Assembly: GCF_035083965.1 (NCBI RefSeq)
Contig: NC_089738.1
Span: forward strand, 10,814,734 to 10,878,733
Direction: 5' to 3'
DNA from: Branchiostoma lanceolatum
Lineage: Eukaryota > Chordata > Leptocardii > Amphioxiformes > Branchiostomatidae
Length of the DNA stretch: 64,000 nt
In this document: piece by piece, positions 13,736 through 55,354 of the stretch
How positions within the stretch are numbered: position 1 is the first letter of the stretch
Layout of the letters: every line of letters starts with the position of its first letter
The notes under the pieces: generated by a model
Databases searched by the model: none
What the model was told of the DNA's origin: nothing
What the model saw: the letters and a program-made list of their open reading frames with translations, nothing else
Translations under genes and position numbers: made by a program

Positions 13736-14749
13736 CTAGTAGGTAGAGCCTTTCAATCTCATGACTATATCATCCAGCCTACGCCGCTTTTTCGGGGGAA
13801 GTCTCACAGACACAGTGCCGCCGCCATCTTGTTTGACGTCACGTGTGACGTTGTCTCGGTGGTCTTGTTGCTGTTGAGTCCTCTCCGTGGATGATGAGGA
13901 ATCGTGGTGTGAATGAACTTGAGAAGCACCAGTACATTTTTCATGCCACATTTTTTCGGCATTGCGAATCACTTGACTGACAGGATCCGGAGCTTGTCGT
14001 TTTGTTCTGACTTTTTTGTCCACGTATGTCGCGTATTGTTCCTCGTTTTTCCGACTCACCATGGAACACTTGTTCTTCCTGCCTGTATTCTGCTGTGACT
14101 GTGTATGGTGGAAACGTTCCTGGGCCTTGTAAAGAGCGTGTAGTGCTCCCGTAACGGGTTGGTGTGTTTTGTCGTCATGGTTATAGATGTACGCTGATGA
14201 ATGCTTATCTCCGTTCTGGCTCTGATATGGAAGGCCGTGTGCTGACGTATAGAAGGCATTTTGGGGTGTTTCTCCGGTGTTTTCTCCACTCACATGATAG
14301 ATCGAAGGTTTGACCACGTCAAAGCCCCACCCTCTTGCACCGTGTGCGAAGAAAGCAAAATTCCCCTGTAGGGTGGGCTCATGGTTGGTGTCGAAGGCGG
14401 GTCCTCTCTTGGCACCGGCAGACATCCTGTCAAACTCTTCCACCGTGATGGACCTGGTTTCCACGATGGTTGGTAGAACTTCGGGGTGCCTCCATCGGTC
14501 GAGATCTGCACCGTTGCAACCGAAGTCAGAACGTGCCATAGATAATATCTCTGGCGAGAAGGCAGTCGGTTGGCAACTCCACCCCTCTGGTGAGAAGGCA
14601 GTCTGTTGCCAACTCAAATTATCCTTGCCATATTGCTCCGTGATGCAGCTAGGAGGATGGCAACCGCATCTAGAATAATCCGGTAGCTCTGGTTGGCCAT
14701 CTTGTCGGAAGCCAGGACCGAACTTATTAGACACCCTCTGGGCAAACAT
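13736..14749 (-). CDS. Novel family gene D: RSIT-EEFDRM protein, 337 aa, intronless
   Basis: Open frame of 337 codons without introns. Residues 94-109 carry the family signature (TIVETRSITVEEFDRM), shared with genes A, B and C in this window. The C-terminus (about 318-331, PPKKRRRLDDIVMRL) matches the basic tail of A and B: a nuclear localisation-type cluster leading into a short amphipathic helix. Unlike A and B, it has no PxDLS/T motif that I can find. The middle is rich in Gln, His, Ser and Lys and is probably disordered. A small internal duplication gives QTAFSPEG and PTAFSPEI (residues 49-68). A CRE-like TGACGTCA lies 62 bases upstream of the ATG. Gene D is transcribed opposite to A, B and C. 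An alternative downstream start is Met71, which would keep the signature. Function unknown; nuclear localisation is inference. Confidence 0.8.
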   Translation of the reverse strand: MFAQRVSNKFGPGFRQDGQPELPDYSRCGCHPPSCITEQYGKDNLSWQQTAFSPEGWSCQPTAFSPEILSMARSDFGCNGADLDRWRHPEVLPTIVETRSITVEEFDRMSAGAKRGPAFDTNHEPTLQGNFAFFAHGARGWGFDVVKPSIYHVSGENTGETPQNAFYTSAHGLPYQSQNGDKHSSAYIYNHDDKTHQPVTGALHALYKAQERFHHTQSQQNTGRKNKCSMVSRKNEEQYATYVDKKVRTKRQAPDPVSQVIRNAEKMWHEKCTGASQVHSHHDSSSSTERTQQQQDHRDNVTRDVKQDGGGTVSVRLPPKKRRRLDDIVMRLKGSTY

Positions 14750-14810
14750 GGCGATCAGACAAGTGTGCGTCTGGTCTGGAGACTGCGGCGTTGGAAGTCA
14801 GACTGCGGGT

Positions 14811-14818
14811 TGACGTCA
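14811..14818. promoter_or_regulatory. CRE palindrome upstream of gene D
   Basis: Perfect TGACGTCA, 62 bases upstream of the gene D start codon. This is the CREB/ATF consensus. Occupancy is not shown by sequence alone. Confidence 0.45.
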
Positions 14819-14829
14819 ATCACAGAATT

Positions 14830-17340
14830 AAGAGGTCAAAGGTGACAGCTGCTGCAACGGGAATGAAGTAATACCAGCTCCTAACCTCAAGGTCGATCTG
14901 AAAGACATACGAGTAGTTCCAATCGTTTATTACTTTGCCTGGAATGTATGTAATGACGCAGGTCCACAACAACATCTAATGAGTGGTCATGCTCTATTAT
15001 TCCAGATAACATTCCAGATTCGTGTTAGTTACTAAAAAAAACAAGAACAGTTCACTACGTCAATAAAGTATAGCTCATTATTGTCTTTTTTTCTTTTATC
15101 AGTACCCTCATGTCAGTCATGAATAACAGCTTTAGAAGGAAGGCACTGATTCGACGAAAATCAATAAATGAGGCGGAAGGAATTTAAGTGAGAGGCCACG
15201 CCATGGACGCTGTCTGAATTCCCGTGTCTGTGTAAACACTCAGATACACTAGTATCTTGATCGATTTAATGATAGTTGAGTGACAATGGTGTTGAATAAT
15301 GTTAGTTTTGCTGAATTCATTTTTCTAAACATCATGTCTATCAGAAATGATAACCCAAAAATTTAAGATACCTTTTAAAAAGTTGCGTGATGCATGCAAA
15401 TTGTACTAATTCGTGGATTTGCTAGACTTACGAATGCCTACTTAGACCTGCAGGTGCCGGACGGTAAGGCAGATGGTGGTGTTATACAGGCTTTTCATTT
15501 GACGTCACTTGCGCCATATTGGACTACAGTGTACGTAGGTCCATAAACCACGTACACTGCTATACCTAACCAAATACCCACCAACATGGTCCCATGGGAT
15601 TCAAATCATAATTACTATGACGTCAATGAAAAGCTTGTATACGACCAGTGAAATGATATTATCAAAAACAGACGTGTGGAAGTCCGATGTTCCAGATAAG
15701 AATTCTTCCACGTGACATTTTCCTCATTTACCAAAGAGCAGATTTGATTAGATTTTCTAGATACGTTTAATCAAAGTATGATGGACAAGAAGAAAGAAAA
15801 TTAACTCTTGGAAGTATTTTACAGCAAACACCTGCATAAATAATTATAGTTGAATTAAACATGGTGGAACTGCTAAGTCATTTTGGTGAAACAAATAGTT
15901 CACTTGTTTGCAGGCCGAAGGTCAAAAACTGATTGCAGCTGTGAAATACTAAGCCTTGTAACTTTGTAAATCATACACTTAGCATGTCGTAGATTCGTTT
16001 GTATGCAGTGTGTAGCTCAAAGACTCGGCCAGATATTTCAGATAAAGCTGTAAAGGATAGAAAAGACATAGCATTAGAGTTTCTCACCATCGACTCTTCC
16101 ACCTCGGTCAGTCATGTCTCCAGGATGCCGTGATCCTGTAACCTTTGGCCTGCGATGGACAAGAACCGGTTCTAACTGCCCTGGAGCGGTTTTATAACAA
16201 ACTACGAGGACAAGACAACTTGTTGATTGTTATGCAAATAATCCAGAACAAATGTTATCATGTCCACAGACAGTAATTGAATATTAGAAGTGAAGATGAC
16301 TACTTGGCATAAATTCACTATCCCATATTCCGATTACCATTGATATCTACGTGTGGTCATGAGCAATGTTGTAAAAGAAGGTAGCGTAGGAATTCTAACC
16401 GACTCCCAGTTATCGTTCTCCTCCTTACATTAAACAACAACAACAAGTAGAATTAAACGTAAGTGTCCAAGTCATATTTCAGAGGAGCAACTTACCCCGA
16501 TGCACTGTTTACCTTTTACCACGCGGTGTTACGTGAACTGTGTACTAACTAAATTAACAAGGTTGCGTCGTGTAAACACAGAGAGACAAAGGTCACTATG
16601 GCGGTAGTTCTTTAAAAACAGGTTATGTTGGCTGTTGAGTCGTTGGACAAGTCGCGTTATGTCGAATGAAATAATGCCTGTGTGTGATGATGAATAATTT
16701 TCAGCAAATAACGCTAGTACCAACAGTTAAGTTTCATATTCCATATAAAACCTTATCAAACGTTTTAACATTTCTGTTACTTTGAAGCTCAACGCACACG
16801 ACTATTTTGCCTTCATCAGATATTCTGACCCACTCATGTTTGACACGTGACTTTCTGGAAACGTGACGTCATAGGCGGGTCAAAGGTACCCGGAAGCCTG
16901 TACCGTCTGCCGTCCCGGTTAATGATTATTTGGCGGGCTCTGATGTAGATAATCCTTTCCACATTCGTTCAGTTCTTAGCTTGCATATAGTTACATCATT
17001 TATTGTCTAATTATCCTTATCTATCGTTGTATAAGGAGAGGCTGCATAAGTTCATGTGGCACTCGGAACAATTAGCGCTGCATTATTAGTATTTCAGTCC
17101 TTTCTCTATTATGTAAGAATCTTTGGTAACACAAAATCTGTTCTGGAAGGAAAACTACGTCTATATCACATCTGTTCAAGCAAAAAGATTAATTAATTTT
17201 CTCTACTGCACGGTTTCATGGAACTAGCTACTGCAAAGAAATACGAAGGTTTTGTATTTCACCATGAAAAGCCTGTACTAATTGACGTTTTACAGTAAAG
17301 ATTAACATTTAATCAATGTCATGGGTTGTCAGTAATACCC
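14830..17340. other. Upstream flank of gene D, no gene seen
   Basis: About 2.5 kb without a supportable exon. TGACGTCA-type sites recur at about 15499 and 16864. The interval is AT-rich and short ORFs have no motif. A 5' untranslated exon of gene D could lie here but cannot be placed. Confidence 0.35.
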
Positions 17341-17347
17341 CAAATAA

Positions 17348-24400: not shown

Positions 24401-25010
24401 AACAGTATTTGAACAATATCAAAACAAATTTGTGGAATTCCAAGGGGCTCCACACTAGTAAAGCGTGCACTTGCTATACAGACAGTACTAGTAGCGAAGT
24501 TGATCGCGTTTTACACACAGAATACAAAGAGTTCTGGGCCAAAAACATCGCTGTCATTCTTTCCTTCAAATTAGCATTTTTTTTTTTTTTCTGGAGGGCA
24601 CGTCCGTTAAACGTACCAAACCTTTGTTCACTTTTACCGCAAGTGATCGGCAATTTTCTACGGTCGGGTTGCTTTCCTGTTGACTTCCTTTGGCTACGTG
24701 ACCAAAATGCAAAATTGCCTCAACGGTATGATTTTGATCATGATGAGAGGAGAAAACATTGCTACCCTTTTATCTTTGTTGTCACATGACGACTGCATGA
24801 AATCCGTCCTTGTAGTTCGTGAAAGTTAGAAATACAAGGCGTTGGTATTGTTGTCTGCGTACGAAATGGTCAGGAGGTCATTGTGTGCTCTTCCGTATAC
24901 GTACGTTATCGTTAATCACAATGATCACCATATTTGAATAGAGGTAGTAATCCGTGTGGGATTGACGCTATCGCTTGTGCTCAGGGTTTATGAACGAAGA
25001 ACAGATGCCG
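24401..25010. other. Intergenic, no gene seen
   Basis: A poly-T tract lies near 24577-24591. The 126-codon ORF at 24409-24789 has no motif and is not convincing. Confidence 0.35.
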
Positions 25011-25350
25011 GGCCCTTGACTTGTCAGGCCATTTGAGTATGCCCCATTGCGTCACGAGGCTGTTGGCCCCGCCCATGAATGCTGGTCTGCCACGTTGACA
25101 TGTTTGTAGAAGACTCATTAGGTGCCTACAGTCCGCCGGGTAAACACGAACAGACCGTTTCCTTCGCTTCTAGATTCTAGATCATTCTACTATTTCTAGA
25201 GCTGGGCAGTAATCCGTAGGAGTATCAAAGGTAGGATTATGCAACTTAAAACCTGCATCCTGAAACAAAGAATTTTGTAGCACATCCTGTTTGGAATCAA
25301 TGGCGGGGTATGAAGTATATTTTGCAGACTAATACCAGGGTTTGATTTTG

Positions 25351-25364
25351 CCGGAAGCCATCTT
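25351..25364 (+). promoter_or_regulatory. ETS/YY1-type core promoter candidate of gene A1
   Basis: CCGGAAGCCATCTT combines an ETS core (CCGGAAG) with a YY1-type GCCATCTT, a common TATA-less initiator arrangement. It is kept in unit 2 at 33085-33098 with one change. It lies about 390 bases upstream of the A1 ATG. A 5' untranslated intron between them is possible: in A2 a GTATGG donor occurs at 33127. Confidence 0.4.
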
Positions 25365-25749
25365 GAGCAAAGGCACGACAGCTACACTGTAGATAAGGGA
25401 TTTTAGTGTGAGAAAGTTTCCTGCTTTGTTCTCAGTGCACTATCGTTTTAAGCAATGTCATAGCTGTTCTACAAATGGTTTAATTGTGTCTGTTAACTTT
25501 ATTGTCCACCTATATGTAGACGAACTATTAAAGAAATCTACGATGTGGATTTTATTACTACGTAGTGTTTGTTTATAGCGACGAGAGGGATTAGGCTTTA
25601 ACCCATGAAGTCTTTTGTTTCCGTAGTTTTCGCACGCAGCCCAAAGTAGAGAGAAGGGGAGGACGTGGACGGCTTCCGCGGTTGTGTTGCTGCCGATATG
25701 CTCGTCCACTTCAATGGGGAAGCGGCCTTCCGTGATCCTGCCAACAACC

Positions 25750-27015
25750 ATGGCCTCTAAAAATGGCAACGGGCAGCGTTCCGAAGAACTGAGAAGACGG
25801 CTGTGCAAACCGATCGGTTCTTCCGTGAAAGGAGCTCGTAGCAGTACACATGAGAAGCTGCAACAGCAGTCGTTCCTGTCACCCACCATTGTCGACGCCA
25901 GATCCATAACGCCGGAGGAATTCAACAAGATGGCGGCTGTCGCCACCGGCAAAGTGACAAAAGGCAGCGACGTGTCTTCGCCACAACAGTGCGAATTTCT
26001 CCAGGCGGGACAGGTATTTCTCACCCAGAATAACATGAATACTGGCTTTGCGTTTGCTAGCTCAGCTCCATTCCTCACGAGCCATGTTCAACGCTACGAA
26101 AACCATCCACCGGAGGCCATTCAACAATCCCTGGCTTCACTGAAGAAGGGTCTTGTTGAGTACCTCTCTAGGGCGAAAGCTGCAAAGGAGAAAGGTCTCA
26201 CAGAGACAGAGAGATCTAACGTTTCCGAGACTGCAACAAAGCCCTTAGCCCAGAAACCTTGGCGAGGGAAGCCATTTGGCTGTTCAACCAAAGGTACAGC
26301 TGTGCCCGCAGCCACAATTAAACCTCTACCATCAACGGCGAGAAACGACGACGTAGTTAAATACCATGTCGTATCAAAACCACAACCACATCCCGGCCCC
26401 CGCACAATTCACAAAGTGCCTAACGCTGAACTGCCGGAGATAAAGCCAATTGATCTGTCACAGGCAGGTACATACAACAGCTCAGACAACCAAGCATCAC
26501 TCAAAGAGGAAATCAACGACCTGAAAGAAAAGATTGTCGAAACTGAGAAAGATCTTCAGAAGATTGGAAACAGGAAAAACGACGGTTTAGTTTCTGAGAC
26601 GACTGCTTTCTCACAACAAGAAGAACCGATTGATCTGACGGTTAGCAAGAAGTCTAGCCATGTTGCATCCGTGCCTTCTTCTGCAACACAACTCCACAAC
26701 AAACGGAAAGATTGCTCAGACAACATCATGGAGGGAAAGAGAAGCCTGCGTGCCTCGACCAAAACCAACACCTTAGCAACCAGGAACAGCTTCCTCCAAG
26801 ATAAGAACAGGAAACGCAAAAGGAAACCCAGTGTTCCATTCCATCGTTCTGGCGAGTTTGGGAAAGCTTCGGCAAACAACGGTCTTCGAATGATGTCTCG
26901 CAAATCTGGCTGTCCTACTGTAGGAAAACGCGGCCGTCTCGATGAAATGGTCCAAGCTCTATCCAAAAGATTAGATGATGCCTACATTCCCTCGTACGGA
27001 ATCGAACATCGGTAG
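25750..27015 (+). CDS. Novel family gene A1: nuclear CtBP-motif protein, 421 aa, intronless
   Basis: The start is placed at ATG 25750 (ACCATGG, MASKNGNGQ). The sequence upstream aligns with gene A2 but has frame-breaking indels, so it is probably 5' UTR even though the frame stays open to 25684. Residues 46-61 are the family signature (TIVDARSITPEEFNKM). A predicted helix follows (about 107-135). PIDLS at 233-237 and PIDLT at 293-297 fit the CtBP-docking pattern PxDL(S/T). Between them, 250-275 is a Lys/Glu coiled coil (EEINDLKEKIVETEKDL). RKRKRK near 350 and GKRGRLDEMVQALSKRL near the C-terminus are basic, NLS-like and partly helical. The rest is Ser/Thr/Pro/Lys-rich and probably disordered. 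The family is not known to me; a transcriptional co-repressor adaptor is inference. Gene B1 lies 4 kb downstream. Confidence 0.85.
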   Translation: MASKNGNGQRSEELRRRLCKPIGSSVKGARSSTHEKLQQQSFLSPTIVDARSITPEEFNKMAAVATGKVTKGSDVSSPQQCEFLQAGQVFLTQNNMNTGFAFASSAPFLTSHVQRYENHPPEAIQQSLASLKKGLVEYLSRAKAAKEKGLTETERSNVSETATKPLAQKPWRGKPFGCSTKGTAVPAATIKPLPSTARNDDVVKYHVVSKPQPHPGPRTIHKVPNAELPEIKPIDLSQAGTYNSSDNQASLKEEINDLKEKIVETEKDLQKIGNRKNDGLVSETTAFSQQEEPIDLTVSKKSSHVASVPSSATQLHNKRKDCSDNIMEGKRSLRASTKTNTLATRNSFLQDKNRKRKRKPSVPFHRSGEFGKASANNGLRMMSRKSGCPTVGKRGRLDEMVQALSKRLDDAYIPSYGIEHR

Positions 27016-27375
27016 TTTTGGTCATTCTCGTCGTGTATTTAAGTCTATTTATTTACTGCTTTCAGAAATAACAATTTGTAATGCGACTTTTGATAACTTG
27101 ATATGCATATATAATGTCTTGTTGATAACCTAATATGCATACTTAATATTTATAGTAAAGTTTTGATATTTCACCCGTCACGATACCATTAGCGCTTCTG
27201 GTATCGGATGTTTGTTGAGAATTAAACTGCACTTGAAATTTCAACCTATGGTTTGCATTTTGTTCTTTCGCACGTTAGACGAGAACCTTTTTTTTGCCTT
27301 TGGATCATGGCCCGGCATTCATTTTTTTGCATTCATTTTAGCAGCCGCCATGCATCAGATACTGATGCCTGCGAA

Positions 27376-27380
27376 TGATA

Positions 27381-27431
<51 letters not shown>

Positions 27432-27682
27432 AAACAGAGATCCTTAACCTTGATAATGTAGTCCCATAGCTTTTTTGAGGCCGTATGGGCAGTGGGTTGT
27501 TATCCTTGCACCGCCTTTTACCTCCACAACTTAAGTCAGGTACATATTTTTGCACCTGGGTGGAGTGAGGACCGGCGTGAAAAGTGTTTACCGCAAGGGC
27601 ACAACATCGGTGGCGTCAGGTGATTCAACCCGGGACGACTGGGTTCTTGGCCAAACACCCTTCCATTGCGCCACACGACCCC
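27376..27682 (-). mobile_element. tRNA-derived SINE with (AATC)n tail
   Basis: Read on the minus strand from 27682: a tRNA-like head with A-box-like TGGCGCAATGGAAGG and B-box-like GGGTTGAATCACC. A GTGCCCTTGCGGTAAACACT block and CCTCACTCCACCCAGGTGCA follow, and the element ends in a run of about 14 AATC units (GATT on the plus strand, 27376-27432). A polymerase III promoter, a conserved body and a simple-repeat tail together define a SINE. The copy at 18.7-19.0 kb shares the body. It lies within tandem unit 1 but no copy is obvious at the matching place in unit 2, so it probably inserted after the duplication. Confidence 0.68.
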
Positions 27683-30097
27683 ACGAGAACAAGAACATTC
27701 ACCCTTTGCAATAACGGTAGCTTAACTCATGATGAGAAGTAATAGGTGATCATTTTCTATTATTGTGAATCGCTAATTTCCATGCTCCTCTCGAGCAGTG
27801 TGTCTATGGAGGGCTAGAAAACATGAACCTGGTGGTGGGGATCATTAGCATAGACGAGAATGCATGATTATGAAAAATTATCATGATATTTAGTATCCAA
27901 TTCAAAATCAAGAAAGACACTTCATATTATATTGTCGATGGTTCGATTTCCGAAGATATCCAATATAAGATCGTGGAAATGCTGTTCAATATTGACTCAC
28001 AAACCCTTAAAGTTGCTAAAATATGACTATGGTCAGTTTCCAATACTAGTGCTAGCCGTCAAAGTGACTCGATATGTTGTCACCTCGAATTGAAATACAT
28101 ATCAATTTGAGGTTATAGTGCTTGTACGTACAAAGTCCCAATATTGGTGAGTGAATCGCCATGCTCTCAGATCTGCGACAAAGAAAGACAGTCGTTAATC
28201 ACAGTTGATTGCATGTTTAACAACATACATGTATAATGTGACGTTGGAGTTCAATCTGCCTAATGCACAATTCTAAGCACTTAATCACACTTACGACATA
28301 CATATTTCATGAATGTGGCATTTGAAAGGACATATTGTTGTGTTACAGTGGCGTTTTGCACGATCGATTGAAATGTTTGCAACAATACGACATGTGTTGG
28401 TGTTTTATCAGTAATTTCTAATAGATGGTATTTTAATGACACTCGTTCATCGACATTTTTTTAATCTCCGACATATTTAGACGGCATTTGTCTTTGCTAG
28501 CACTGTACACGAATATAAGTAAGTTAATTGGCTCAACAAAGAAAAGGGGTCAATTATTACAATAGATTGCACATACATGGACATGACATGCTTTCGGAAT
28601 CCTAATTTTCCTAATGTCTTTGACAAAAGTCGTGCGATTCGTTACTACATGTACCAGCAACCCATTACCATCTTGTCGTCGTGCTGGATCACCCCCTGAA
28701 ACCATAGTGAATCAGTAGAAAATTTAATTGGTACCCTGGCCTGATGTCGATGAACAAAGCAAGATCCTGGTGACATAGAGATTGGACACGCATCGCTTCC
28801 TTTTGAATCCTAAAACAACAACGTTTGAAGCATGGAAGTCTAATTCTAATTACTGACGACACATTTTATACACATATGCTATATTTTGCCTCTAACTATT
28901 CTAATGTGAGCCAATTTCATAGCTATGTAACTGTCATCACATATCAGTATACCAATTCAAATTTGCATAGGTTTAACGTTCTAGTATGGTCGACAATACT
29001 TACGTCATAATCACGTGAGTGCAAAAATGAAAGTGAGCGGGAGTTTTCTAAACATTTTGACCTGGACGCCGATCATGTTTCGTAAATTGGCCATATCGTA
29101 GTGTCCCTACCTTGAGAGCTGGTTTCCTTGGCTAGGCCCACGCTGCTTGTAAACATGCGATAAACAATCTATGTTATATGGGGTATGTGACATGCTTAAG
29201 ATGCCAATTAGGGAGATGAAATACAACCCCACTCCTTTGTAAGTACGTGACGTCAATGGCTGCCATGGTGACAGACTAAAGACGGTTGATTAACACCAAA
29301 ACAGGTGATTTTCTGGGTAAATGTGTACCCATTATTCTGTCACCAACATTCATAATAAGTAATTACCCCTTTCAGCATTGCAATGTTCATGCGGAACCAT
29401 TTGAATACTTGGAAGAAAAACAGAAACGCGCTTTTAGTGCAATCAGCATTTTTTACGCATCAACGGATTCTTTGCTGATTACCATCTTCGATTATTTCAA
29501 TGAAACCGTAATTAAATACAGTATTTTCATTGACGTCATAGTGAACATAATTTGAACCCAGGCGACCATGTTGGAGTAATGTTTTTAACCATATCCAATC
29601 AATTACTCAGTTGGTCCAGGTTGAAAGCTATAACCTGGAAACTAGAAACATTATCTATGTTTAGAATGCGTAGTTCCTTTGTTTTCTTTTCTCATGCCGA
29701 AACATTAATATTGTTTGACAAAGTTGTCTGGCCCTACTAGTATATGTACTTCTGGTGCAAAGACAAAGGCAGTCACTACTGCAAAAGTTTATCATGGTTG
29801 CCATGAAAAAAAGATCTAGAACAGCAAAGACAACCAAGAAAAGTTAAGGATGATAATGATTATGAAAGTTTTAATACTTTATCACAGTCATTTAATATGT
29901 AGTAACACAATTTCACAGTCCATGACGTAAACGGTTTTTTAACTTTTTGTTCCCCCTTGCTCTTTGGTAACAATGCCTTTACAAAGAAGGTAAATAAATA
30001 ACAACGGAGGTAGCTATGGTGTCTATTAACTCTAGTGGACCTCGAGCTATTTATAGCCTGGCATGACTATGACCAACCGACCGCTCTGGACCGGCTG

Positions 30098-30220
30098 AAA
30101 CCGGTTTGGGCTAGGCTGCCTCGTATAAATAGAGGCCGCCGTTGGGCGATGAAGGATCTGAAACAGCTGCCAACGAACAGGCCATAAGAAATCCTTGTGC
30201 AGATCTGATCCAGCAACAGA
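30098..30220 (+). promoter_or_regulatory. Promoter and 5' untranslated exon candidate of gene B1
   Basis: A Grainyhead/CP2-type palindrome AAACCGGTTT (30098-30107) is followed by TATAAATA (30124-30131) and, after about 90 bases, a splice donor GTGAGT at 30221. The same order and spacing occur upstream of B2 (AAACCGGTTT 37421, TATAAATA 37447, GTGAGT 37545). This predicts a short non-coding first exon starting near 30155, spliced to the coding exon, perhaps at the AG after TTTTTTGCGC (30852). Confidence 0.6.
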
Positions 30221-30741
30221 GTGAGTACATGGGTAAGTATATGTTCAAATGACAAATTAAGTTCATTTGAAACGTTGTAGGATTATTTGTCCCTGATTTG
30301 TGAACATTTAAGAGCCCGCACTTGCCCTGTGTGATCGTTATCTGATATCCCACACTGGGATCACGCCTGTATTTGGAGGCGTCTGATTGCCAAGTCCACT
30401 TCAGTCGCATGAGTGCAAATTTGGATCAAATGGTGACCGCCAACTCTTGACTCCTTTTATGCATGCAAAGTATTTCTGTCCTTGCTTTGTTGCTAGGGGA
30501 CACGACATGTAAGACTCGGAAATATGTAACAGTTACCATTCAACTCGGCTGTGACACAAACATGTTTCTGTAATTATTTTTTCCTGCACTTCATATTATT
30601 ACATATTTGAGGATTTACTTTAAGGAGACAAAGCAATTAGATATCGATGTATACAAAAGTGTCTGTAATTTAAACAAGGGCGTGTACAGAATATGAGGTA
30701 GTAGGTGCATTCGTGTTGTAACATGTACCTTTGTTTCCGCA

Positions 30742-30830
30742 TGAGTCACTTCCTCCAGAATGGTTTCATGGTGATTGTGCAATTACATCACGAAGTTGCG
30801 CAATCGCTTATGTGGCAATACCTTATATGG
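30742..30830 (+). promoter_or_regulatory. AP-1/ETS, C/EBP and CArG cluster upstream of gene B1
   Basis: TGAGTCA (30742-30748, perfect AP-1) is followed directly by an ETS core (CTTCCT), then by the C/EBP palindrome TTGCGCAA (30796-30803) and the serum response element CCTTATATGG (30821-30830, perfect CArG box). All are preserved at matching positions upstream of B2. The cluster is 206-294 bases before the ATG, either as a proximal promoter or as an intronic enhancer downstream of the TATA box at 30124. This combination is typical of growth-factor or stress-inducible genes. Confidence 0.6.
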
Positions 30831-32567: not shown

Positions 32568-32568
32568 T

Positions 32569-32640
<72 letters not shown>

Positions 32641-38166: not shown

Positions 38167-38385
38167 GCCTCTTTCTTTTATGCAGCGTCACAGAAAAGAA
38201 TTTGGCAGCAACCCTGGAGGCTGCGGTGCCCTTTCTCCTGAAATCACACCAATCGTAATCCGGACGATATCCTGTAAACGATCCCCGTTGTGAAGAGAAA
38301 ACCACCTGGATTGGGGGTAAAAGCTGTACGACGACATTGCAGAGTCAGCAGAGGCTACAAGCTGAAAGGAACTAAGTAGGCCGAA

Positions 38386-39309
38386 ATGGCGAACAGTCTA
38401 CCAACTATCTCGGACATCAAGTCCATCAGTCAGGAGGAGTTCGACAGGATGTCAGGGTCAGCAACTCAACCGGGCAGTCCTGACAACACGGCCGCCAGTG
38501 TCAGCGTCGTGACACGTTCACTACCCACAGGTGTAACCCCAAACACGTCCATCACGTCAGGTGATACGTATTACAGGAAAGCATTGCTTAACTACCTCGT
38601 GAATGCGTCTAACGGCCTCATCAACATCTACAGTGCTAAAGCTTCAGCAACAAACACTGGAATTCAAGGAAGACCAACTTTTCCTCGGCCACATTTTGGG
38701 GTGCGTCCATCGAACATGTTTTCGAGAGATCTTACACAAAGCACGATCAGCACAATCCACATTGGAGAGCAGACTAGAAAACAATCTTTCATTACAACTG
38801 GACGTAGTAATTACCCAAATGTGGGTGTCCATGGCCGAGGATACCGTCCTCAAAGGTCCGACCCACTCCCTCGGACTGATAAGATCAACACCCTGAAGAG
38901 GAAGCTTCGAGAATCACAAGAAGCGATATGCACTTTGAAGAAGCTGAAACAGGAAGGCGTGATGTGGAGTGATGATGATGACCATCCGGTTGATCTAACC
39001 GTCACCGGAAATGTTGGCCACGGTGTCCATACATTCAGTCCATATCCGGTTGATCTATCAGTCACCGGGAAGGTGGGCCACGGTGTCCATAGAGTCGGAC
39101 CACTTCCGGTTGGTGTTGTTGAAGTCACATCAGCCAAGTCACCAGATTCCCATCATGTGACGAGGGATGTCAGGAGGTCAACCCGTGACGCTCTTCCGTT
39201 GAAGCAGCATCCAGCTGTGAAGAAGAGACGTGGGCTCTCGGAGATTGTAAATAGCTTAACGAGTCAAAAACTTGGCCATGAGAGCTCTATAAATGGGATT
39301 ATACTTTAG
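38386..39309 (+). CDS. Novel family gene B2: nuclear protein with two CtBP motifs, 307 aa, intronless
   Basis: Tandem paralogue of B1 with the same signature (TISDIKSISQEEFDRM, residues 7-22), helix, coiled coil (KINTLKRKLRESQEAI) and basic tail (AVKKRRGLSEIVNSL). The CtBP-motif region differs: a 60-base module occurs three times, giving PVDLT at 201-205, PVDLS at 221-225 and a degenerate PVGVV at 241. B1 has only two modules and one intact motif. Two closely spaced docking motifs could raise affinity for a CtBP dimer; this is inference. The start ATG context (GAAATGG) is good. Confidence 0.85.
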   Translation: MANSLPTISDIKSISQEEFDRMSGSATQPGSPDNTAASVSVVTRSLPTGVTPNTSITSGDTYYRKALLNYLVNASNGLINIYSAKASATNTGIQGRPTFPRPHFGVRPSNMFSRDLTQSTISTIHIGEQTRKQSFITTGRSNYPNVGVHGRGYRPQRSDPLPRTDKINTLKRKLRESQEAICTLKKLKQEGVMWSDDDDHPVDLTVTGNVGHGVHTFSPYPVDLSVTGKVGHGVHRVGPLPVGVVEVTSAKSPDSHHVTRDVRRSTRDALPLKQHPAVKKRRGLSEIVNSLTSQKLGHESSINGIIL

Positions 39310-40330
39310 GGCTTCAAACAACATGTTCTGGTAGAACTGTAGACTTATTCTTATCCAATGGCCTTGGTATTTCCGGGTGTGTAGGTTAGGAGGAAACGGG
39401 TCCTTACAAATTGACAAGGTTAGCTCCTGATATGAGTTAATCGCACACAACTATCCCACAGGACGTTAGCTTCTTTTTTAAGACCAAGACCTCCGTTATG
39501 CAGAATAATGACAATAATATTCATTGTAGGATATTGATGTTTATTTGCTTTTAGACTCATTTTTTTACAGTATATTGTGAACTACGTAATTATATTCAAA
39601 AGTCGTTTTAGTCATATTTATAACGACTTGGACACTTCTAGGTAGCTAGTTTCACATTTGTTTGTCTGCCAATTCTACTAAATTTCCAAATTTCCAATAC
39701 ATTACTAAGGATAAGTAAGCTGACTATCATTGATGTCATACCTTGTAGTTTTGTGACTATTTTTGTACGTTTGATATGAATGCTAACGTAATGAGAGCCA
39801 ATAAAGCGAGTAATGGCCAAGCTACAGTGTAATCTATCGCAAGTTATATTGCCCCTAATATTCAACACTTAGGTCGCTCGACATCAGTGTACACAGTTCA
39901 TTATTGGTGGTTATTCTTAACTGTTTTGATGCATGGTTACATGAAAATGTTTGATCAGACTGATGTATTTAAGCTTAAGGTTAGTCATCAAATATATCAG
40001 AATAGCTTATTTCATATTGGGGGAATGATACAATGTAACACAACGTTATCAGGTAGTACTTTTAGACTATAAACCCATGGAAAATAAGTCCCTTTCACAG
40101 CAAAAAAATCAATACATGGCGTGAAAATATCTTTAAAAATATCTAAAATGTATAAAGATCGAACTATCATTGAAGAATTTCATGTACCAGCACAATTCAA
40201 AGTCCAAATACCTCTTATGTCAAGACCAATTTTGTCACAGCCAAACGCAAGTAGACATGGGGTAGTCCCACATTCTAAAGTCACCACTAAATACGCCGGG
40301 TCCCATCTGCAGGATCTCTATTAGTTGAGG
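39310..40330. other. 3' flank of gene B2, no gene seen
   Basis: AT-rich sequence with no supportable exon. Parts align with the 3' flank of B1 (31.9-32.4 kb). Short ORFs are not convincing. Confidence 0.35.
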
Positions 40331-40518
40331 AATACTCACTCCATTTTTCGTTTCAGCCTAGCAGTATATTCATCATTCGGCCGAGCATGTCCGCCCACTG
40401 AAATGTTACACCGATGGCCTTGGAGCCTGGCGTCAGTTGTAGGCAACTGCGCCAAATTAAGTCTGGTGCTATTTATGTATATATCTGGTTCGGTGTCAGA
40501 TGCCAAGGAGAACGGACT

Positions 40519-40520
<2 letters not shown>

Positions 40521-40559
<39 letters not shown>

Positions 40560-40570
40560 GTGTGTGTGTT
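40521..40570. repeat. (TG)n microsatellite at the end of unit 2
   Basis: About 48 bases of TG on the plus strand with one GCG interruption, in the place that carries (CA)n in unit 1. Confidence 0.95.
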
Positions 40571-40985
40571 AGTATATAAATGTATATGTTGCCCCATATA
40601 CACCAGGACACAATATGGCAGCTCGTTAGTTCATGTATATTTTTTTATAAATCTTGCAATGACAAATTTAGAGTCTATGGGTAGTTTATTAATATACCAA
40701 ATAGCGATTGGGCACCGAATGAAGTTTGGGATACCAGTACATTAGTGTAATTATGTCTGGCCTAAGCAAAGAGAAACTCTAACTACCTTCTTGGTGAGGC
40801 ACCCATGTCTCAGCATTTTGATATTGCTTATTTGTATAGACTATGCACGCTTTTATGATTACTACCATTTGCTATCTAAGTGACGCCAAGCACTTTCAAC
40901 AATCACATACATTTCACAACTAATATAACGAAGCGGTATCGAAACGCCAAACGGTGGCACCAATAAAGACTAGCTTAAGAATATC

Positions 40986-43900
40986 CTACGGAGTTACGCT
41001 AAACGGGATCTGCTCGGGAAGAAGGTAGGTGTAGGGCTGCTCTTCTGGCTTCTCCGTCTTTTCTCGCATCACCTAGCAACGGGAAGAGATAGGTTTGACA
41101 AAATTGATATCCTAGGAATCATATGGCATATTTTCGTCACAAAAGGTGATCGTACAACATCAATCTAAAACATGACTTCAGAAGGTACATTCAGTCGGAC
41201 AGTTTCTTTTTTTTACATTTCAAAAACTACTGCCAATTGCACTATCTACAGACCAGAACAGGCCAATTGAAACTTTTACTGAAGATAACTGCAAAAAGTC
41301 TTGGTCGTTCCTTAAAAGTCAGTTAGTAGCTTCATCATACAAATGAAACCGTTGGCGTGCACTTAAACACAAATGATAACTGTACCTGTGTGTACTCTAC
41401 TTGTGTAGCATCATCGTCCTCCTCGTAGAACATGTTGACGGTGAACTCCTGTCCTTCGTACTCCCCACTCCTCTCGTTCCGCAGCCTCATGCTGTTGGAG
41501 ATCTGCCGCAATGCTTCCTGGAACTTCAGCACAGCTGCCTGAGCCTTGTCGTCTGTGAAGTGACAATCTCGGTACTCCCCGATGAAGGCCTGGAATCAAT
41601 GTCAGTAAAATTTGAATATCGAAAACGTCATGAACATATCATAGTGTTGATCATAAGTGCGTTGTGTTTTTAATTTCCTTGTTGGTTGATGCAGATGGAT
41701 ATGCATATCATATGACATCGGATGATTTGAAAAAAAATCCGTTACTCGTTGAAGTACCCAAGACATTGGACTTGCCTCGTCTTCGGGAAGTTTCGACATC
41801 TCTAAAGCGAAGTCTATTTGTTTCCTGGCGACGACTTTGTCTGGAAGAGCCGCCATGATGTCTCCAAACGTAGCCTTGGTCAGATTCTTGAAGTCCTTTT
41901 CCTCGTCTAGGTACGTCCCGCGGATCTTCTTCAAGAGATCTGGCTCGCCAGGCGTTGCCACCACGAACCCCTCCTCATCGATGATTTGTTCCTTCTCTGC
42001 CTCCTTCTTGCTCTTCTCTTTTTCGGTCTCCTCTTCTCTGTCGGCCTGCCTGGCAAACCCGTATTGTCTGGAAGACGACAAAATAACATGTAATTGTTGT
42101 TCTTTGTTCTCTCTAGATACTAAAAAGACGCATTCTTTTTACAATGACAAAACTGGTCATGTATCAATGACGTAATCTGGTTTGAGATCACAAGATTCGT
42201 ACCTGAGAGCGAGAGGCATGTTGGGAACGCAGGTGGCTAGGTCACGCATCCCAGCAGTCAGTGCGCGGTTCTGAACGGAGCAGGTGAAGATGACGATAGT
42301 CACCACGTCCACCAACTCTTTAACGGTGTACAGAACCTTGGGAACTCCTGTGGTAAGTGGAGAAAATCACGAATATATTTTGTTATCAACTCGTATCTAT
42401 ACGTTTAATCCTGGTTTACCTCCATCGTAACGATACTTGTTCAAAAAGATCAAGAAAGTTATGGGAAAGTCCTACAAGTAATACTATAATAACCTTGTAA
42501 ATACTGCACTTATATTTCCCGAAAGTGCAATTTCCGAATATCAAGCATGTAATTCTTTGGCATAGGAATTCTAGATTTGATGCAACACAAAGAATAGACT
42601 TTTAAGATAGAAGTGGCATGGTACAACTGTTTCAATACTATACCTTTGTCTCCTTGCGACTCGCGCATGAACCCGTTGTTTCGGACGTCCCTGATCCAGT
42701 TTTGCAGCTCCTTGTCTGATGTGACAAAAGTGTTGTTTTTGTAGTAGAGCCGGAGGGTTTCTTCAACGAACCTCTCAATGGCCTTCCACAGCCGGAAACC
42801 ATCATCCCGGTAGAAATATCCTGAAGATGCAACAGTAATATCCTGTTAAGCAACATTTTCCTTTCTATTAAGTCATCTATGATTTATAAGTACTGTTATT
42901 GTGACGTTCTCGATTGCAAACCTTGCACTATGTTTCTATATGTACACATTATACTGTCCCACAAAGGGCATGAGCATTGTTTGAATTCTCACCCGGTTGG
43001 TAAACTTACTACTGGACCCGCACAAGTATGAGTCGAAAAATATTTCTCGTCAGTAAAAGTTGGAAAGGACAATTAAGTATTATCATGATTCTCTGACCTG
43101 GAAGCTTGGAGGGATCGTCAATCCCTCTGTCTGCCATCATGGCGGGGAAGTGCAGGTTTCTCAGGTGGAACTCCCGGAACCCTGTAGCGATCAGGTGCTT
43201 CCTGCCGCTGGCTGACAGGGAGTAGATCTCGTCCAGAACGGACCCGTCACCGGTTACCAGGTCGCGAAGTCGGACCTTGCTGGCCAGAACTCGACGAAGG
43301 TGTGGCGCGAGTAGCTTGTGGACCGGATGTGGCGAAGGCAACTTCCGGAAGAGGGCCACGGCGAAGGCCTCCATGAGCAGGTGGGAGTGTAGGTAGAGGG
43401 AGATGTTGAGATGAATCTGTGCGTCCGAGTTGCGGAGGAAGAGCTTTGCCAGCATCCATTCGTACTCTCCGTCATCTGGAGTCCATATTGGATTGTCGGG
43501 ACCAGGACCCTGGTACAGCTGCAATGGAAAGCACATAGGCACGTCAGACACTTTGCACATTAGGACTAACTGGAAAATATAAGATCATGCTTCTGGTTAT
43601 TTCAACGAATCAAAGCAGATTGGGGAAACGTTGTTACCTGAATGGCCACGGGGACGAAGTGCCCCTTGCTGTTGACGTGGAAGAGTGCTATGGGCGCCGC
43701 GTGATAGAACACCTCTGCCCCGACAACGTTTGGACTCAGACCCTTCATTAAGGAACAGTCGACGTAGTACATGTGTCCAGCCTGACCAAGAGAAAAGCAC
43801 TGTTATTAAGATATCTTGACTCAAAGGATATGAGAATTAAAGGGGAGAGGTCTATGATTGAGAACCTGCAATGAAGATCTCCATTGCAGATCAATAGATT

Positions 43901-46900
43901 GAACTACATTGAACTTACTGCAATTTCTTGGCGCAAACTCCACCCTCTGTCCTTTGCGAGTATCTCCTTCAGTCGCCCTGCCGTCATCGGGAACTTCGGT
44001 GGAACCTGGTCGAACCGCCGGATGGCCAGTGGATGGACGCCGTTCAGAAACTGTCGTCCGAACTCCTCGTCTGTCTTCCAGTTCTTGATGGACGCCGGTA
44101 CCTCCTTTACTGCAGACTCCATCAGTTGTTCGTAATCCCCCAGACTCTTAGCGATCTTGGATGCGAAAATGCTTCCTGCGCCCTTTTGAATTCGGAACTC
44201 TGACAGTCTCTCGCTGTCGCGCCGGACGTCGTGTGGAAGTCTGGTCAAGTCGAGACCTCCGGGAAAGGCCGGTTCGCCGTGAGACCATTTGTAGCTGTCG
44301 TAGCCTTGCCACAACTCCATCTGGCGGTGGAGCGCCTCAAGGTCTCCCTTCGCTCCGTCGTTTAAAGAAACTGCCAAGCAATACACCGAGATATAAGACA
44401 TAGAAAATGAACATGCAACAACGGCCGTCAAAGTGTTAAGTTTTGCATGAAGCATAAACACAAAAGCAGAACATCACGCACTACGTTCCCGTGTACAAAG
44501 AAAGGGGTGCTGACTACATACCTGCTCCTCTCCTGAGAGTAAGGCGCTTCCCCAGCCATCGATATCCAGGGAACTCGAACTTCAACCCTCTTTGAACGTC
44601 ATGGACCTGCACGTTCTCGATGAAGTAGTCGCTGTTGTCGTCATCTTTAACCTTCTCGATTGACACCAGCACGACTTCGCCGACGTCGAAGGCCTCTACC
44701 TCAAGAGATTGCTTTCTTCCTGCAGCGATGCTGTTCCCGATGCCTTGTCCTATCTGGATAGGTTCCGTCCGCGTCCAAGGCCCGGTCAGACTGACCAGAA
44801 TCCCCTTATTGCTCCCTACAATATGGCGGACTGTGACTTCTACTTTGTACTTCAGGTAGTCGTAGTCGGCTGGGCCGTTTTGAAGGGCAGGATTTTTTAG
44901 GAGAGATGGCTTGTACACGGTCTGAACTGCAGCAACAACCTTGGCCAAACTGTTGTAGTCGTAGATTGATGTCGGCTCTTCGAAGCTCAGCGACTGCGGC
45001 AGGTTGGCGATGTTGAATGTCGTCCTCTTCTTGGTGGCGTCTGAGAGGAGTGTGGTGATTGATACCACGGCCAGGTCTGCCCAGACGTGCAGCATCGGAC
45101 TCCAGATCCTACAGGTACAGAGATGTTGTGAGTCATTTTTACAGCATTTTCAATGTAGTATTATAGTATTTGCATCATGGAACGCAGTGGATTTAGATAA
45201 TATTGCGGTAAAGGCGCGGTCACATTCGTCGCACAACTTACGCACGATCGCAAACTACTAGTGAAAAGACATTCGTGGGATAGCCGTGCATGTATCGTAC
45301 AAAATGCTATCTTATTACCAAAAACGATGTCTTATATCCTTGTCGGCGGTTGGTTCTGTCACAGCCTTCTTGAAAAACCTACTACATCAAATCGATCAAC
45401 GACCTACGACGAATGTGACCGCGCCCAAAGATTACATTAAACATCGTCTCATTGCCAGAGTGTGAGTCACGTATATATGGTTACCTGTACGGATTTAACG
45501 TGTTGAATGTGTCTCCGTCCTTCCATTCATGGATCTGGATCTGCAGACGATAGCGGATGGGCGTCCACCTCAGTCTGTTGACATACTCCTGCCGGAGGTA
45601 GTCCTTCGGCCTGGTCTCATCCGGATGCCTGCCCAATTCCCTGCAAAAAAATCATATTATATCAGATATGTTATGATTCAACACAATAGATAGATAGATT
45701 ATATAAACCAAAAAGAAATTGCAAATAAACTATTAGATAGTCTAAAGCTCCTTACAAGTTCCGCCAAGTTGAATAGTTTGCTTTGTGTTCTTTTGTTAAT
45801 TAAAAAAGATAATTACCTTGTACGATACTTTTTCCCCTTCTCTTGAACGACTTTGCGGTTTATGATTGGTTATTATCAAATCATATTCAGTATTTGTTCT
45901 CAAAGATAGATGAGGAAGAATAACCGTTAACGCATAAAATAGTAATATCTACGATGATGTACGTACCACACCCTCTCCTGATCTTCCGGATGTAGAAGTC
46001 CGGATTCCGTCTGCTGCTCGTCGGGAATCAGCCGGAATTTGGCATACCGGAGTGCACCATCCTTGGCCTCGAACTTTATGGGTAACCGGCTGTAGTAGTT
46101 CAAGTTGCTGTAGGAGGTTGGGGACCGACGCACTGAGTCTACCAAACAGTAATAACTGAAAGTTGTAGAAACAGACAGGTGTTGATTCATATGCAAGTTA
46201 TTACGATTTCCAACACTCATTGTTCTGAAAGACTATATAACATCACAGAATGAAATGCAGCAATATTAGGCACCATTAGCGTATGATGACAATGACTGTC
46301 AAATGTCGCTCAGAGGATATCACACTTACTTCATGGGGAACTTGAAACACCATTCTTTAAGAGCATCTGGACCTCGACGTTTGGCGCTCAGAAAGTCCTC
46401 GAATGATGGGATGTCCCAGTAGGGAGACATGGTTCCCGTGTGCAGGATGAGATCAAGCTGGCTCGGACCGTCTATGTCCTCAAACTTCAGCTCAGCTCCT
46501 CTCATATCCACAGCTGTAAGAAAGAACAGGTTGTAAATTCTAATACAGACGCTCTATGGGACCTAATTTGGAAGGAAGAAAGGAAGGAAGGAAGGAAGGA
46601 AGGAGGGAGGGAGGGAGGGAGGGAGGGAGGGAGGGAGGGAGGGAGGGAGGGAGGGAGGGAGGGAGGGAGGGAGGGAGGGAGGGAGGGAGGGAGGGAGGGA
46701 GGGAGGGAGGGAGGGAGGGAGGGAGGGAGGGAGGAAGGAAGGAAGGAAGGAAGGAAGGAAGGAAGGAAGGAAGGAAGGAAGGAAGGAAGGAAGGAAGGAA
46801 GGAAGGAAGGAAGGAGTGAGTGGCGTACCTGCATCGTCATCTGACGAAGTATTGGTGTGCTGGAGGCGGACTTGGAAGACCCGGCCAGGTTTGAAGAAGT

Positions 46901-49219: not shown

Positions 49220-49259
49220 TAGATCTTATAACAATACATCGACGGATAGCCTTCAGCCA

Positions 49260-52402: not shown

Positions 52403-52705
52403 AAAAGTAACACCCACTGCACACCATCCATCCAGATATCCGACATCGCTAAGTTGATACGAGAAAACAGTTGGCTGCCACACGACGATCGTAAATGCCT
52501 GAAACAACTGATAGACTTCATCTTTCGCGAGAGATCATCTCTAACAGTATGGTATGATGCAGAAGTGACCGTCTACGGAAAACAGATGGAAGGAGTTACA
52601 TTTACATCGGGAGACAAGAGCAACAAGTATGTAGCTCATCTTCATGACGTCCCAGTTCCATCCTCTGTGTCGGCACAAAACGGATGGTGTAGTGAGCAGC
52701 ATTGA
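52403..52705 (+). CDS. Orphan terminal exon, product unknown (100 codons)
   Basis: A strong pyrimidine tract and CACTACAG acceptor end at 52402. From there a frame runs 100 codons to TGA 52703-52705. Its composition is protein-like: it begins KSNTHCTPSIQISDI, then AKLIRENSWLPHDD, then a likely helix (CLKQLIDFIFRER) and a beta-rich segment (LTVWYDAEVTVYGK). No family is recognised. It is written as the last exon of a gene on the plus strand, with unidentified upstream exons. The start phase is unknown. It could instead be a remnant of a retrocopy. Confidence 0.4.
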   Translation, partial: KSNTHCTPSIQISDIAKLIRENSWLPHDDRKCLKQLIDFIFRERSSLTVWYDAEVTVYGKQMEGVTFTSGDKSNKYVAHLHDVPVPSSVSAQNGWCSEQH

Positions 52706-54055
52706 GATGTGATCAAATGGTCCAAACAAAAGGAGGACAGAAAGACATATGACTTGCAATGGACGATATGATAGATATTTGAAATTCGCTGTTTGTATGA
52801 TATGGTTGTAAGAACATTGGTATTACCGTCGGTTAATATGTATTCCTTTGTTGTTGCTTTACACACAGTAAGTAGAGCCCGGAAGACTGTTGTGTGGCTC
52901 CAGAAATTATCAGGGCTGTGACGTGCAGTTCGATGGAATTAGTTTGTTTCTTCAGTTTATCAACTGTTTTGGATATATGATCTTATGAATTTAGCTTATT
53001 AATCGGTGGACTGAAATTGTTATGTATGAACTTATCTCCTGTCCTTTTCTTTTTTTATCTTCACGGACTGTATTAAACTAATCTCTAGTTTGAGTTTGGA
53101 CAATCTTTTGTCACTGTTATGTTGCAACCGCGCCACCTAACGGTTATCTAAAACATTACATGATACCGACACACTTGTTCTCTACTGTTATGCATGGGTG
53201 CCGAAGGGCCGAAGTCAGGTGACTAAAATGTACGCCCACATGATTGGTGGCATATCATGCTTTTAATCTATCACTACGTGTCTCTCATCGTCAGATCCGT
53301 GTACATGCATGGCTAAAACCACAGGTAGGGTGTTATAACGTTATCAAAATTGTACCAAATGTTATCAAAATTGTGCCAAATGTTATCAAAATTGTGCCAA
53401 ATGCTGTTGTCTTAATGTTACTAGAATGATTTCTATACATTATTCTGATATCTTTTAAAAGGTTACGCCAACAACATTTGGTGAGACCTGTCGCACGTCG
53501 CAATCGCATGCCACACACAAAGTGGATATTAATATGTATGTAATACATCTTTATACAATGCTGTGTTGCTGTTTTGTGGCCTAGATATCAATTATTAATG
53601 TTAGTGCTTGACTTTCAGTAACGCCTGCCGTGGTATTCTTTCAGCACTGGTTTATCACCATGCTTATTTATGATTATGTCGTTACAACAAGCGTTATGCC
53701 GATATATGACACAGGATACTATCACCGAATATATATATATTGTGTTTGGGGGAGGGGGGGAGTGTCTTCCGTCAGTAAAAACTGACCATGGGAAAATCCT
53801 AATTCGGAATAATCCTAAAGTATCGGCTGTCTAAACAGTCCTACTAGAATGACAGTCTCTGCCACCTAAGACACATTTGTAATCTGATTCAATTCTGTCA
53901 TCAAACAATTTACAAAGTATGTAATCGCATGAATGCTGTTTATAGTGCTAAAAATCAATGATATTCGTGATCGTTATGAATAATTGAAAAAAATATGTTG
54001 TAGTAAGAATGAAGAGATATAAAGCATGCAATATGTCTTCTTCCTCTAATTGCAG
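52706..54055. other. Intergenic, no gene seen
   Basis: Holds the 22-bp triple repeat listed separately and a TATATATA run near 53731. At 54055 a pyrimidine-rich acceptor (TTCCTCTAATTGCAG) precedes gene C, so its leader may be spliced. Confidence 0.35.
53334..53404. repeat. Three tandem 22-bp units
   Basis: GTTATCAAAATTGTGCCAAAT repeated three times with one substitution in the first. Confidence 0.9.
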
Positions 54056-54097
54056 ATTGCACTTCACGGTTACGAGCAATGTGGGAAGTCGAGTAGC

Positions 54098-55354
54098 ATG
54101 GCAATGGCAGAATCTAAAGACGCGACTGGTCACAATGATCAACAAAGGAGTCAACCCTTCACATCGCGGGAGGAACGTTATCGTTACAAGATGGAAACGT
54201 GGAGACTGTGGTGTCTACATCGAGTTTTACAGGCGCGCCTAGAGGCTCGCGGCTACCCGGATGGAGACGGTACAAGTACAACACCACGTATTGTTGACGT
54301 GAGATCCATAACAGTCGCAGAGTTCGACCGAATGGGTCAGAAAAGTAGCAAGCGCCCCGAGAGAAGCAGAAAACCGACAACATCGCGATCGAGAGCCGCA
54401 AAGCCATCCAAGAAGTGGACCGAATTAATCGAAAAAGCAACGTCACAGCCAGATGGTGCAGAACAACCCAAGAAATGCACCCCAAACGCAAAGTCACCGC
54501 TAGATGGCGCGGAACAACCAGAGAAGTGCACCCCAAACACAACGTTACAGCCACCAAATGGTGCAGAGCAATCCAAGAAATGCACCAAAAGCGCAACGTC
54601 GCCACCAAAGGATGCAGAACAACCCAAGAAGTGCACCAAAAATGCAACGTCACCAACAAAGGGTGCAGAACAACCCAAGAAGTACATCAAAAACGCAACG
54701 CCACCTCCAAAGGGTGCAGATCAGCCCAATAAGTGCACAAAGAATGCAACGTCACCACCAAAGTGTGCAGAACAGCCCAAGAAGTCCACAAAAAACGCAA
54801 AGTTGCCACCAAATGGTGCAGAGCAACCCAAAAAGTGCATAAAGAATGCAGCGTCGCCACCAAATTTAAATGGTGAAGAACAACATAAGAAGTGCACCAA
54901 AGATGTAACGTCATCACCAAGATATGCCGAACCGACCAATAAGCTCATCAAATATGCAACGTTACCGTCACACGGATTCAGACCGTGGATCTGGACGGAG
55001 AATGCAGATGTTGGCAGCACCCGGCCATCCACAAGCAATGCAAGTTGTGTTCGAAACACCGACGAGAAACTGAGAAAACGTACACACGGATCTACCACGC
55101 CAGTCGAAGCCGGATTACCCAAACAGCCAAAATATCACCCAGGACGAAAGGTTGTTGGCAAAACATCGGAATCAAAGACAGTCCTGGCCTCCGTACCGAC
55201 ATCTGCTAGTATCAGCAGTCCGACTGTGGTGACACATGCGGCCAGACAAAAACCAATAGCCCCACAACAGCCAATGCCAGGTGTTCCAACATCTTATCAG
55301 CGATTCTGGCAACCATGGCAAGATCATACGTACTTCGACGCAAATAGAAAATAA
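54098..55354 (+). CDS. Novel family gene C: RSIT-AEFDRM protein with ten 17-residue repeats, 418 aa
   Basis: The start is placed at ATG 54098 (AGCATGG). The frame is open from a splice acceptor at 54055, so an untranslated upstream exon is likely. Residues 64-79 carry the family signature (RIVDVRSITVAEFDRM). Residues 120-292 are about ten tandem 17-residue repeats with consensus GAEQPKKCTKNATSPPK, strongly basic, each usually with one Cys and a (S/T)PPK step. The (S/T)-P-x-K pattern recalls histone H1-like minor-groove-binding and proline-directed kinase sites; this is inference. The tail (293-418) is Ser/Thr/Lys/Pro-rich. Neither the PxDLS/T motif nor the K-K-R-R-R-L tail of A, B and D is present. 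Gene C is therefore a divergent branch in which a repeat array replaces the docking region. Confidence 0.78.
   Translation: MAMAESKDATGHNDQQRSQPFTSREERYRYKMETWRLWCLHRVLQARLEARGYPDGDGTSTTPRIVDVRSITVAEFDRMGQKSSKRPERSRKPTTSRSRAAKPSKKWTELIEKATSQPDGAEQPKKCTPNAKSPLDGAEQPEKCTPNTTLQPPNGAEQSKKCTKSATSPPKDAEQPKKCTKNATSPTKGAEQPKKYIKNATPPPKGADQPNKCTKNATSPPKCAEQPKKSTKNAKLPPNGAEQPKKCIKNAASPPNLNGEEQHKKCTKDVTSSPRYAEPTNKLIKYATLPSHGFRPWIWTENADVGSTRPSTSNASCVRNTDEKLRKRTHGSTTPVEAGLPKQPKYHPGRKVVGKTSESKTVLASVPTSASISSPTVVTHAARQKPIAPQQPMPGVPTSYQRFWQPWQDHTYFDANRK
54455..54972 (+). repeat. Coding 51-bp minisatellite in gene C
   Basis: About ten units of 51 bases, two with small in-frame insertions (unit 2 adds one codon, unit 8 two). 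A unit is a multiple of three, so all frames stay open across the array and generate false ORFs on both strands. Confidence 0.92.

Follow-up and report, generated by a model that had tools for sequence, protein, structure and literature searches.

Why a lancelet genome should carry, within a short distance, six uninterrupted open reading frames (ORFs) that share one signature is the question raised by a stretch of Branchiostoma lanceolatum DNA (contig NC_089738.1, positions 10,814,734 to 10,878,733). The whole 64-kb stretch is referred to here as the window, and all coordinates are counted from its first letter. In the ORF list of the window, the six frames encode 285-474 amino acids (aa), five on the forward strand and one on the reverse: D (13736-14749, -, 337 aa), A1 (25714-27015, +, 433 aa), B1 (31036-31893, +, 285 aa), A2, the tandem copy of A1 (33452-34876, +, 474 aa), B2, the tandem copy of B1 (38386-39309, +, 307 aa), and C (54098-55354, +, 418 aa). 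An earlier note on this DNA announced five intact ORFs while naming six, and added a relic; the six are uninterrupted, and the relic was not found. We put the probability at about one half that the A and B products are mostly disordered nuclear adaptors, whose signature would hold a partner to which they bring the corepressor CtBP.

The signature, PTIVDxRSITxEEFDRM, is common to all six ORFs, which bears out the shared RSIT-x-EEFDRM element of the earlier note in every case. It occupies residues 91-116 of D (14402-14479, -), residues 55-80 of A1 (25876-25953, +) and residues 1-26 of B1 (31036-31113, +), with a predicted helix at residues 67-78 of A1 and 16-23 of B1. A glutamate stands at the +3 position of S/T-x-x-E in 6/6 ORFs. 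By the usual rules of helix capping, the signature would form a helix start with an S/T-x-x-E capping box and an I...F staple across the helix. The score used in a six-frame scan of the window was derived from the six signatures themselves, and the scan therefore probes further copies rather than the six. The six ORFs scored 53.8-60.8 and the next site (at 49061) 27.5; among five mononucleotide shuffles the highest score was 25.0. The frame at 49061, the top extra match, has no further resemblance to the family. No seventh locus corresponding to the proposed relic ('E') was detected in the window by signature, tail, full-length profiles or a degenerate scan, and the intervals shared between A and B (35250-36420 and 28120-29560) contained, when translated, no open frame like the family.

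The second shared element is a basic tail, present in five of the six ORFs (KRGRLDEMV in A1 and A2, KRRRLSEIV in B1, KRRGLSEIV in B2, KRRRLDDIV in D) and absent from C. This distribution agrees with the KRRRLDEIV-type tail previously assigned to A, B and D. It was located in D at 13739-13795 (-; KKRRRLDDIVMRL), in A1 at 26920-26976 (+; GKRGRLDEMVQAL) and in B1 at 31819-31875 (+; KKRRRLSEIVNSL). Runs of the KKRRR type in A, B and D exceed the shuffle expectation.

The putative CtBP motif is confined to the A and B proteins. P[ILV]DL[ST] has a single match in B1 and two matches in each of A1, A2 and B2. Shuffling predicts 0.001 (A1), 0.003 (A2), 0.000 (B1) and 0.003 (B2), a sum of about 0.007 against the seven observed; for the looser PxDL[ST], shuffling predicts 0.087 over the four proteins. 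The matches are PIDLS (26446-26460, +) and PIDLTVSKK (26626-26652, +) in A1, PIDLS (34172-34186, +) and PIDLTVSKK (34352-34378, +) in A2, PVDLTVTGK (31621-31647, +) in B1, and PVDLTVT (38986-39006, +) and PVDLSVTGK (39046-39072, +) in B2. One copy each in A and B lies about 15 residues or less after the long helix described below. The general CtBP motif is given as PxDLS in two reports (PMC6068344, PMC6586819), and a third identifies PVDLT as the CtBP contact of KLF3, where replacement of DL abolishes recruitment (PMC3874204).

The A and B frames encode proteins under moderate constraint. The ratio of nonsynonymous to synonymous substitution rates (dN/dS), proposed earlier as a check, was below 1 by all four methods for both pairs: 0.56 (NG86), 0.55 (LWL85), 0.66 (YN00) and 0.59 (maximum likelihood) for A1/A2, and 0.47, 0.50, 0.59 and 0.54 by the same methods for B1/B2. 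When the same substitutions were placed neutrally in 2000 simulations, changed codons numbered 120.4 on average (minimum 104) for A against 85 observed, and 87.4 (minimum 73) for B against 71 observed. No stop codon arose in A (5.8 expected, P 0.003) or in B (3.7 expected, P 0.017). Lengths divisible by three account for 5/7 indels in the A coding sequence and 3/5 in that of B, compared with 0/10 and 8/26 upstream. The other coding indels are paired closely and both copies' frames remain open, so that the frame preservation claimed previously holds between copies. These tests cover the A and B pairs; D and C are without a close copy.

Constraint is unevenly distributed along the chains. Between copies, the signature keeps 25/26 residues in A and 25/26 in B. 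The A pair further retains 59/62 residues of the linker with PIDLS, 22/26 of the coiled coil, 13/14 of the second motif and 21/24 of the tail, with 79/120 and 57/84 kept in the intervening stretches; the B pair retains 28/29 of the coiled coil and 13/14 of the motif, with 27/31, 44/78 and 31/54 in between. AlphaFold models of B1 and A1 place four helices in the same order: signature (residues 16-23 in B1, 67-78 in A1), second (58-79, at 31207-31272, +; 133-159 in A1), long (158-184, at 31507-31587, +, the coiled coil and top-scored part of the B1 model; 257-292 in A1, at 26482-26589, +) and tail (267-280; 409-422). The A1 model has four additional short helices. By the charge-hydropathy rule five of the six ORFs are disordered and B2 is barely ordered. 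The families were thought to have diverged outside the signature and tail, and this is incompletely so: a predicted second helix, the coiled coil and P[IV]DLTV also follow one another in both A and B. In single-sequence comparisons (a 64-kb search without composition correction), the match between A2 and B1 had an E of about 1e-6 and covered much of both sequences, while D against A and B (E 0.002-0.004) and C against D (0.001-0.002) matched in the signature alone.

Two of these genes were duplicated as a block. Pieces of 25013-31882 (+), which contains A1 and B1, match pieces of 32778-39283 (+), which contains A2 and B2, indicating a joint duplication of A and B. The local expansion by tandem duplication suggested before is thus upheld as two copies of one A-B unit. 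The homology is patchy: matching pieces share 76-85% identity (76-78% outside the frames), and the aligned codons of the frames 86.0% (A) and 84.1% (B). Between A1 and A2, identity reaches about 97-100% at 25725-25965, 26313-26373, 26433-26553 and 26730-26790 and falls to 60-70% between these patches. In the first 60 codons dN (0.030) exceeds dS (0.022). Because dS is low in the first high-identity patch as well, gene conversion or an extra constraint at the DNA level may have acted there; likewise, the blocks of 97-100% identity between 25725-26553 and 33463-34280 coincide with low dS and may reflect gene conversion. No DNA similarity links the sequences that flank D, C and the A-B unit.

Upstream of the B genes, matches to AP-1, C/EBP and CArG sites recur with identical spacing. 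In B1 the block spans 30742-30830 (+), with AP-1 at 30742, the C/EBP match TTGCGCAA at 30796 and the CArG match CCTTATATGG at 30821; in B2 it spans 38078-38166 (+), with the three at 38078, 38132 and 38157. The matches are 54 and 25 bases apart in both genes, about 300-210 bases before the ATG, and the two TTGCGCAA copies upstream of B1 and B2 are the only ones in the window. The upstream regions align with 75% identity. Taken together, these matches give a weak hint of inducibility. D has TGACGTCA, the full cAMP response element (CRE) palindrome, 69 bases before its ATG, but the word is enriched throughout the window.

As a separate observation, TGACGTCA occurs 14 times in the window against 1.15 expected, above all 100 shuffles (for example at 13649, 13834, 14811, 15500 and 15618), and is the top-ranked palindromic 8-mer of positions 1-61900. 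Five sites lie at 13649-15618 around D, those at 29248 and 36118 are tandem-unit copies, and those at 20157 and 22537 share their context. Judged by eye, two sites within 15480-15645 are flanked by matching sequences in inverted orientation (TTATACAGGCTTTTCATTTGACGTCA and a near reverse complement of it) and may belong to a small mobile element of the hairpin type.

The description of the loci as intronless fits the reading frames and does not extend safely to the genes. In-frame stops precede the start codons of all six ORFs. Acceptor-like sites lie no more than 300 bases 5' of every one of them, which makes 5' untranslated exons possible. ORF C has such a site 42 bases 5' of its ATG, the interval contains no stop in frame, and C may be a last coding exon. 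No AATAAA or ATTAAA was found within 600 bases 3' of A2 and C. ORF C also contains a 51-base in-frame tandem repeat of 9.4 copies (54432-54920, +), which encodes a 17-residue Lys/Cys/Pro repeat.

The P[IV]DL[ST] motifs, the basic tails and the low-confidence, mostly unfolded models are best explained by a nuclear adaptor that would either recruit CtBP or titrate it. For recruitment, the basic tail would carry the protein into the nucleus, the coiled coil would allow pairing, and P[IV]DL[ST]V would dock in the peptide cleft of CtBP. The signature, and perhaps the tail helix too, would hold a DNA-binding or chromatin partner, and the protein would thereby deliver CtBP to the target genes of that partner. 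Stimuli acting through the AP-1, C/EBP and SRF-type sites may switch on the B genes. D and C, which keep the putative partner-binding end (signature and basic tail in D, signature alone in C) and have no P.DL[ST], might compete with A and B. On this sequence-level argument, four of the six genes may be unrecognised gene repressors.

Several results weigh against the adaptor reading. With no P.DL[ST] in D and C, the motif is not a defining feature of the family. P[IV]DL[ST] was spotted before it was counted, and nine motif types were tried, for which the shuffle figures are uncorrected. Mean pLDDT (the AlphaFold confidence score) was low at 48.4 for B1 and 46.2 for A1, and the two models drew on common alignment rows and are therefore not independent. 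Conservation of the B tail between copies is just 16/23. When the A and B pairs were compared as profiles, the signature region alone was aligned (E 0.00015, probability 51.7), so that the evidence for a shared origin of the middle part is weak. Upstream of the B genes, 23 of 1192 placements of the three-window pattern are equally fully conserved; the block is unexceptional and its support for a promoter modest. The AP-1/C/EBP/CArG trio is absent within 800 bases upstream of A, C and D.

An unrelated role and titration of CtBP are the main rivals. The six could form a fast-evolving, lineage-restricted family with another role, for instance in stress or immune signalling, in which P[IV]DL[ST] serves a different partner or one subfamily only. 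The dN/dS of about 0.5 is high, the signature is the sole element present in all six, the motif is missing from D and C, and inducible-type sites lie 5' of B, all as such a family would have it. We nevertheless consider it a good deal less probable than an adaptor, since the motif, together with the V after it and often a K in the vicinity, closely follows the CtBP consensus and is conserved in 4/4 A and B proteins. Slightly less probable again is that the proteins relieve repression by filling the cleft of CtBP, in the manner of MCRIP1, which competes through its PxDLS (PMC6586819). The same motif, the lack of a Pfam DNA-binding domain in the six ORFs and the presence of two motifs in each of A1, A2 and B2 would be in keeping with such titration. 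The central position of the motif in A and B and their further conserved modules suit bridging instead, and differ from MCRIP1, a protein of 97 aa.

Origin from a mobile element, whether as its own ORFs or after domestication, appears improbable. These are single-ORF, multi-copy genes amid repeats, with a non-long-terminal-repeat (non-LTR) reverse transcriptase at 58942-60990, but no transposase, integrase, reverse transcriptase or gag family was matched in the six ORFs (Pfam). The dissimilar flanks and the joint tandem duplication of A and B also argue against it, and the longest 25 of 68 inverted repeats at 24500-41000 all pair the same two microsatellite-like stretches rather than element ends. 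That the frames are chance or decaying ORFs, as the excess of dN in the first 60 codons of A1/A2 and the lack of AATAAA/ATTAAA after A2 and C would allow, is very hard to reconcile with the missing stops, changed-codon counts below all 2000 neutral runs and the in-frame indels.

The adaptor reading can be carried further, to a proposal that as a whole we regard as speculative and probably wrong in some part. The six would then represent an animal family, so far unrecognised, of CtBP adaptors that are induced by signals and rest on a new docking motif, the capped helix PTIVDxRSITxEEFDRM. Tandem duplication would have enlarged the family and given it CtBP-proficient (A, B) and CtBP-deficient (C, D) members, which share a partner and thereby tune one another. 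If so, a chordate-type genome would hold a set of corepressor adaptors annotated only as 'hypothetical protein', a label that annotation pipelines leave because the chains are disordered and conservation is limited to short motifs. The signature would act as a new docking motif whose partner could be found, and the split between A/B and C/D would offer a natural test of the evolution of CtBP adaptors through gain or loss of a five-residue motif. More generally, a motif-level reading can supply a testable function for an orphan family.

Elsewhere in the window, parts of a lipoxygenase gene, which has several exons and a PLAT domain, lie at 42510-45095 (-). The reverse transcriptase frame at 58942-60990 (+) is of the non-LTR type (RVT_1, E 7e-23; zf-RVT). 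Positions 62003-64000 consist of a 10-base satellite, ATGAATATTC, in about 200 copies that continue past the window end; it is largely self-complementary and accounts for many inverted matches in the self-comparison of the window.

The six ORFs gave only sub-threshold matches in Pfam (E up to 5) and likewise in NCBIfam. B1, and the tails of B1 and D, had no matches among PDB sequences, where the six-row profile had a single match, a myosin light chain at the signature (E 1.4, not significant). In viral contigs (IMG/VR), pattern matches numbered 190 with the six-row alignment, 69 with the A pair and 4 with D, and in prokaryotic contigs (GTDB) 61 with the six-row alignment; tblastn confirmed none in either collection, and absence from viral and prokaryotic contigs is uninformative on animals. 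The signature, tail and motif strings did not occur in the literature text searched, and no title among the amphioxus matches listed describes the family. The view that no known family can be recognised therefore stands for these sources.

Three resemblances were considered and not adopted. ITxEEFxxM resembles the second helix of an EF-hand, but the ORFs have no acidic calcium loop and no EF-hand family in Pfam. The tail LxxIV of B1, B2 and D, as a short helix, is like the CoRNR box bound by NCoR/SMRT (consensus I/LxxII), at about chance level in B2; its last residue, however, is V, and A has LxxMV. Groucho-binding proteins carry a C-terminal WRPW, whereas the WQPW of C (55307-55318) begins at residue 404 of 418 and is non-terminal (0.036 expected in shuffles).

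Closer parallels are found among CtBP partners. RIP140/NRIP1 and LCoR are adaptors that bind CtBP, and RIP140 is largely disordered, but they are recruited to nuclear receptors through LxxLL. This element occurs in none of the six ORFs, and a nuclear-receptor protein similar to RIP140 or LCoR is accordingly disfavoured. The signature is not known from either. MCRIP1 is likewise a small protein with a PxDLS motif and without a DNA-binding domain; its motif is C-terminal and it has no other domain (PMC6586819), whereas in A and B the motif is central and accompanied by further conserved modules, within a family of 285-474 aa. KLF3 (BKLF) is a zinc-finger transcription factor, unlike the six ORFs, in which Pfam to E 5 finds no zinc-finger family. 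B1 and B2 nevertheless carry the exact PVDLT of its CtBP contact, and A1 and A2 carry PIDLT. The family is undescribed in the sources searched, and the principle it would use, CtBP recruitment, is already known.

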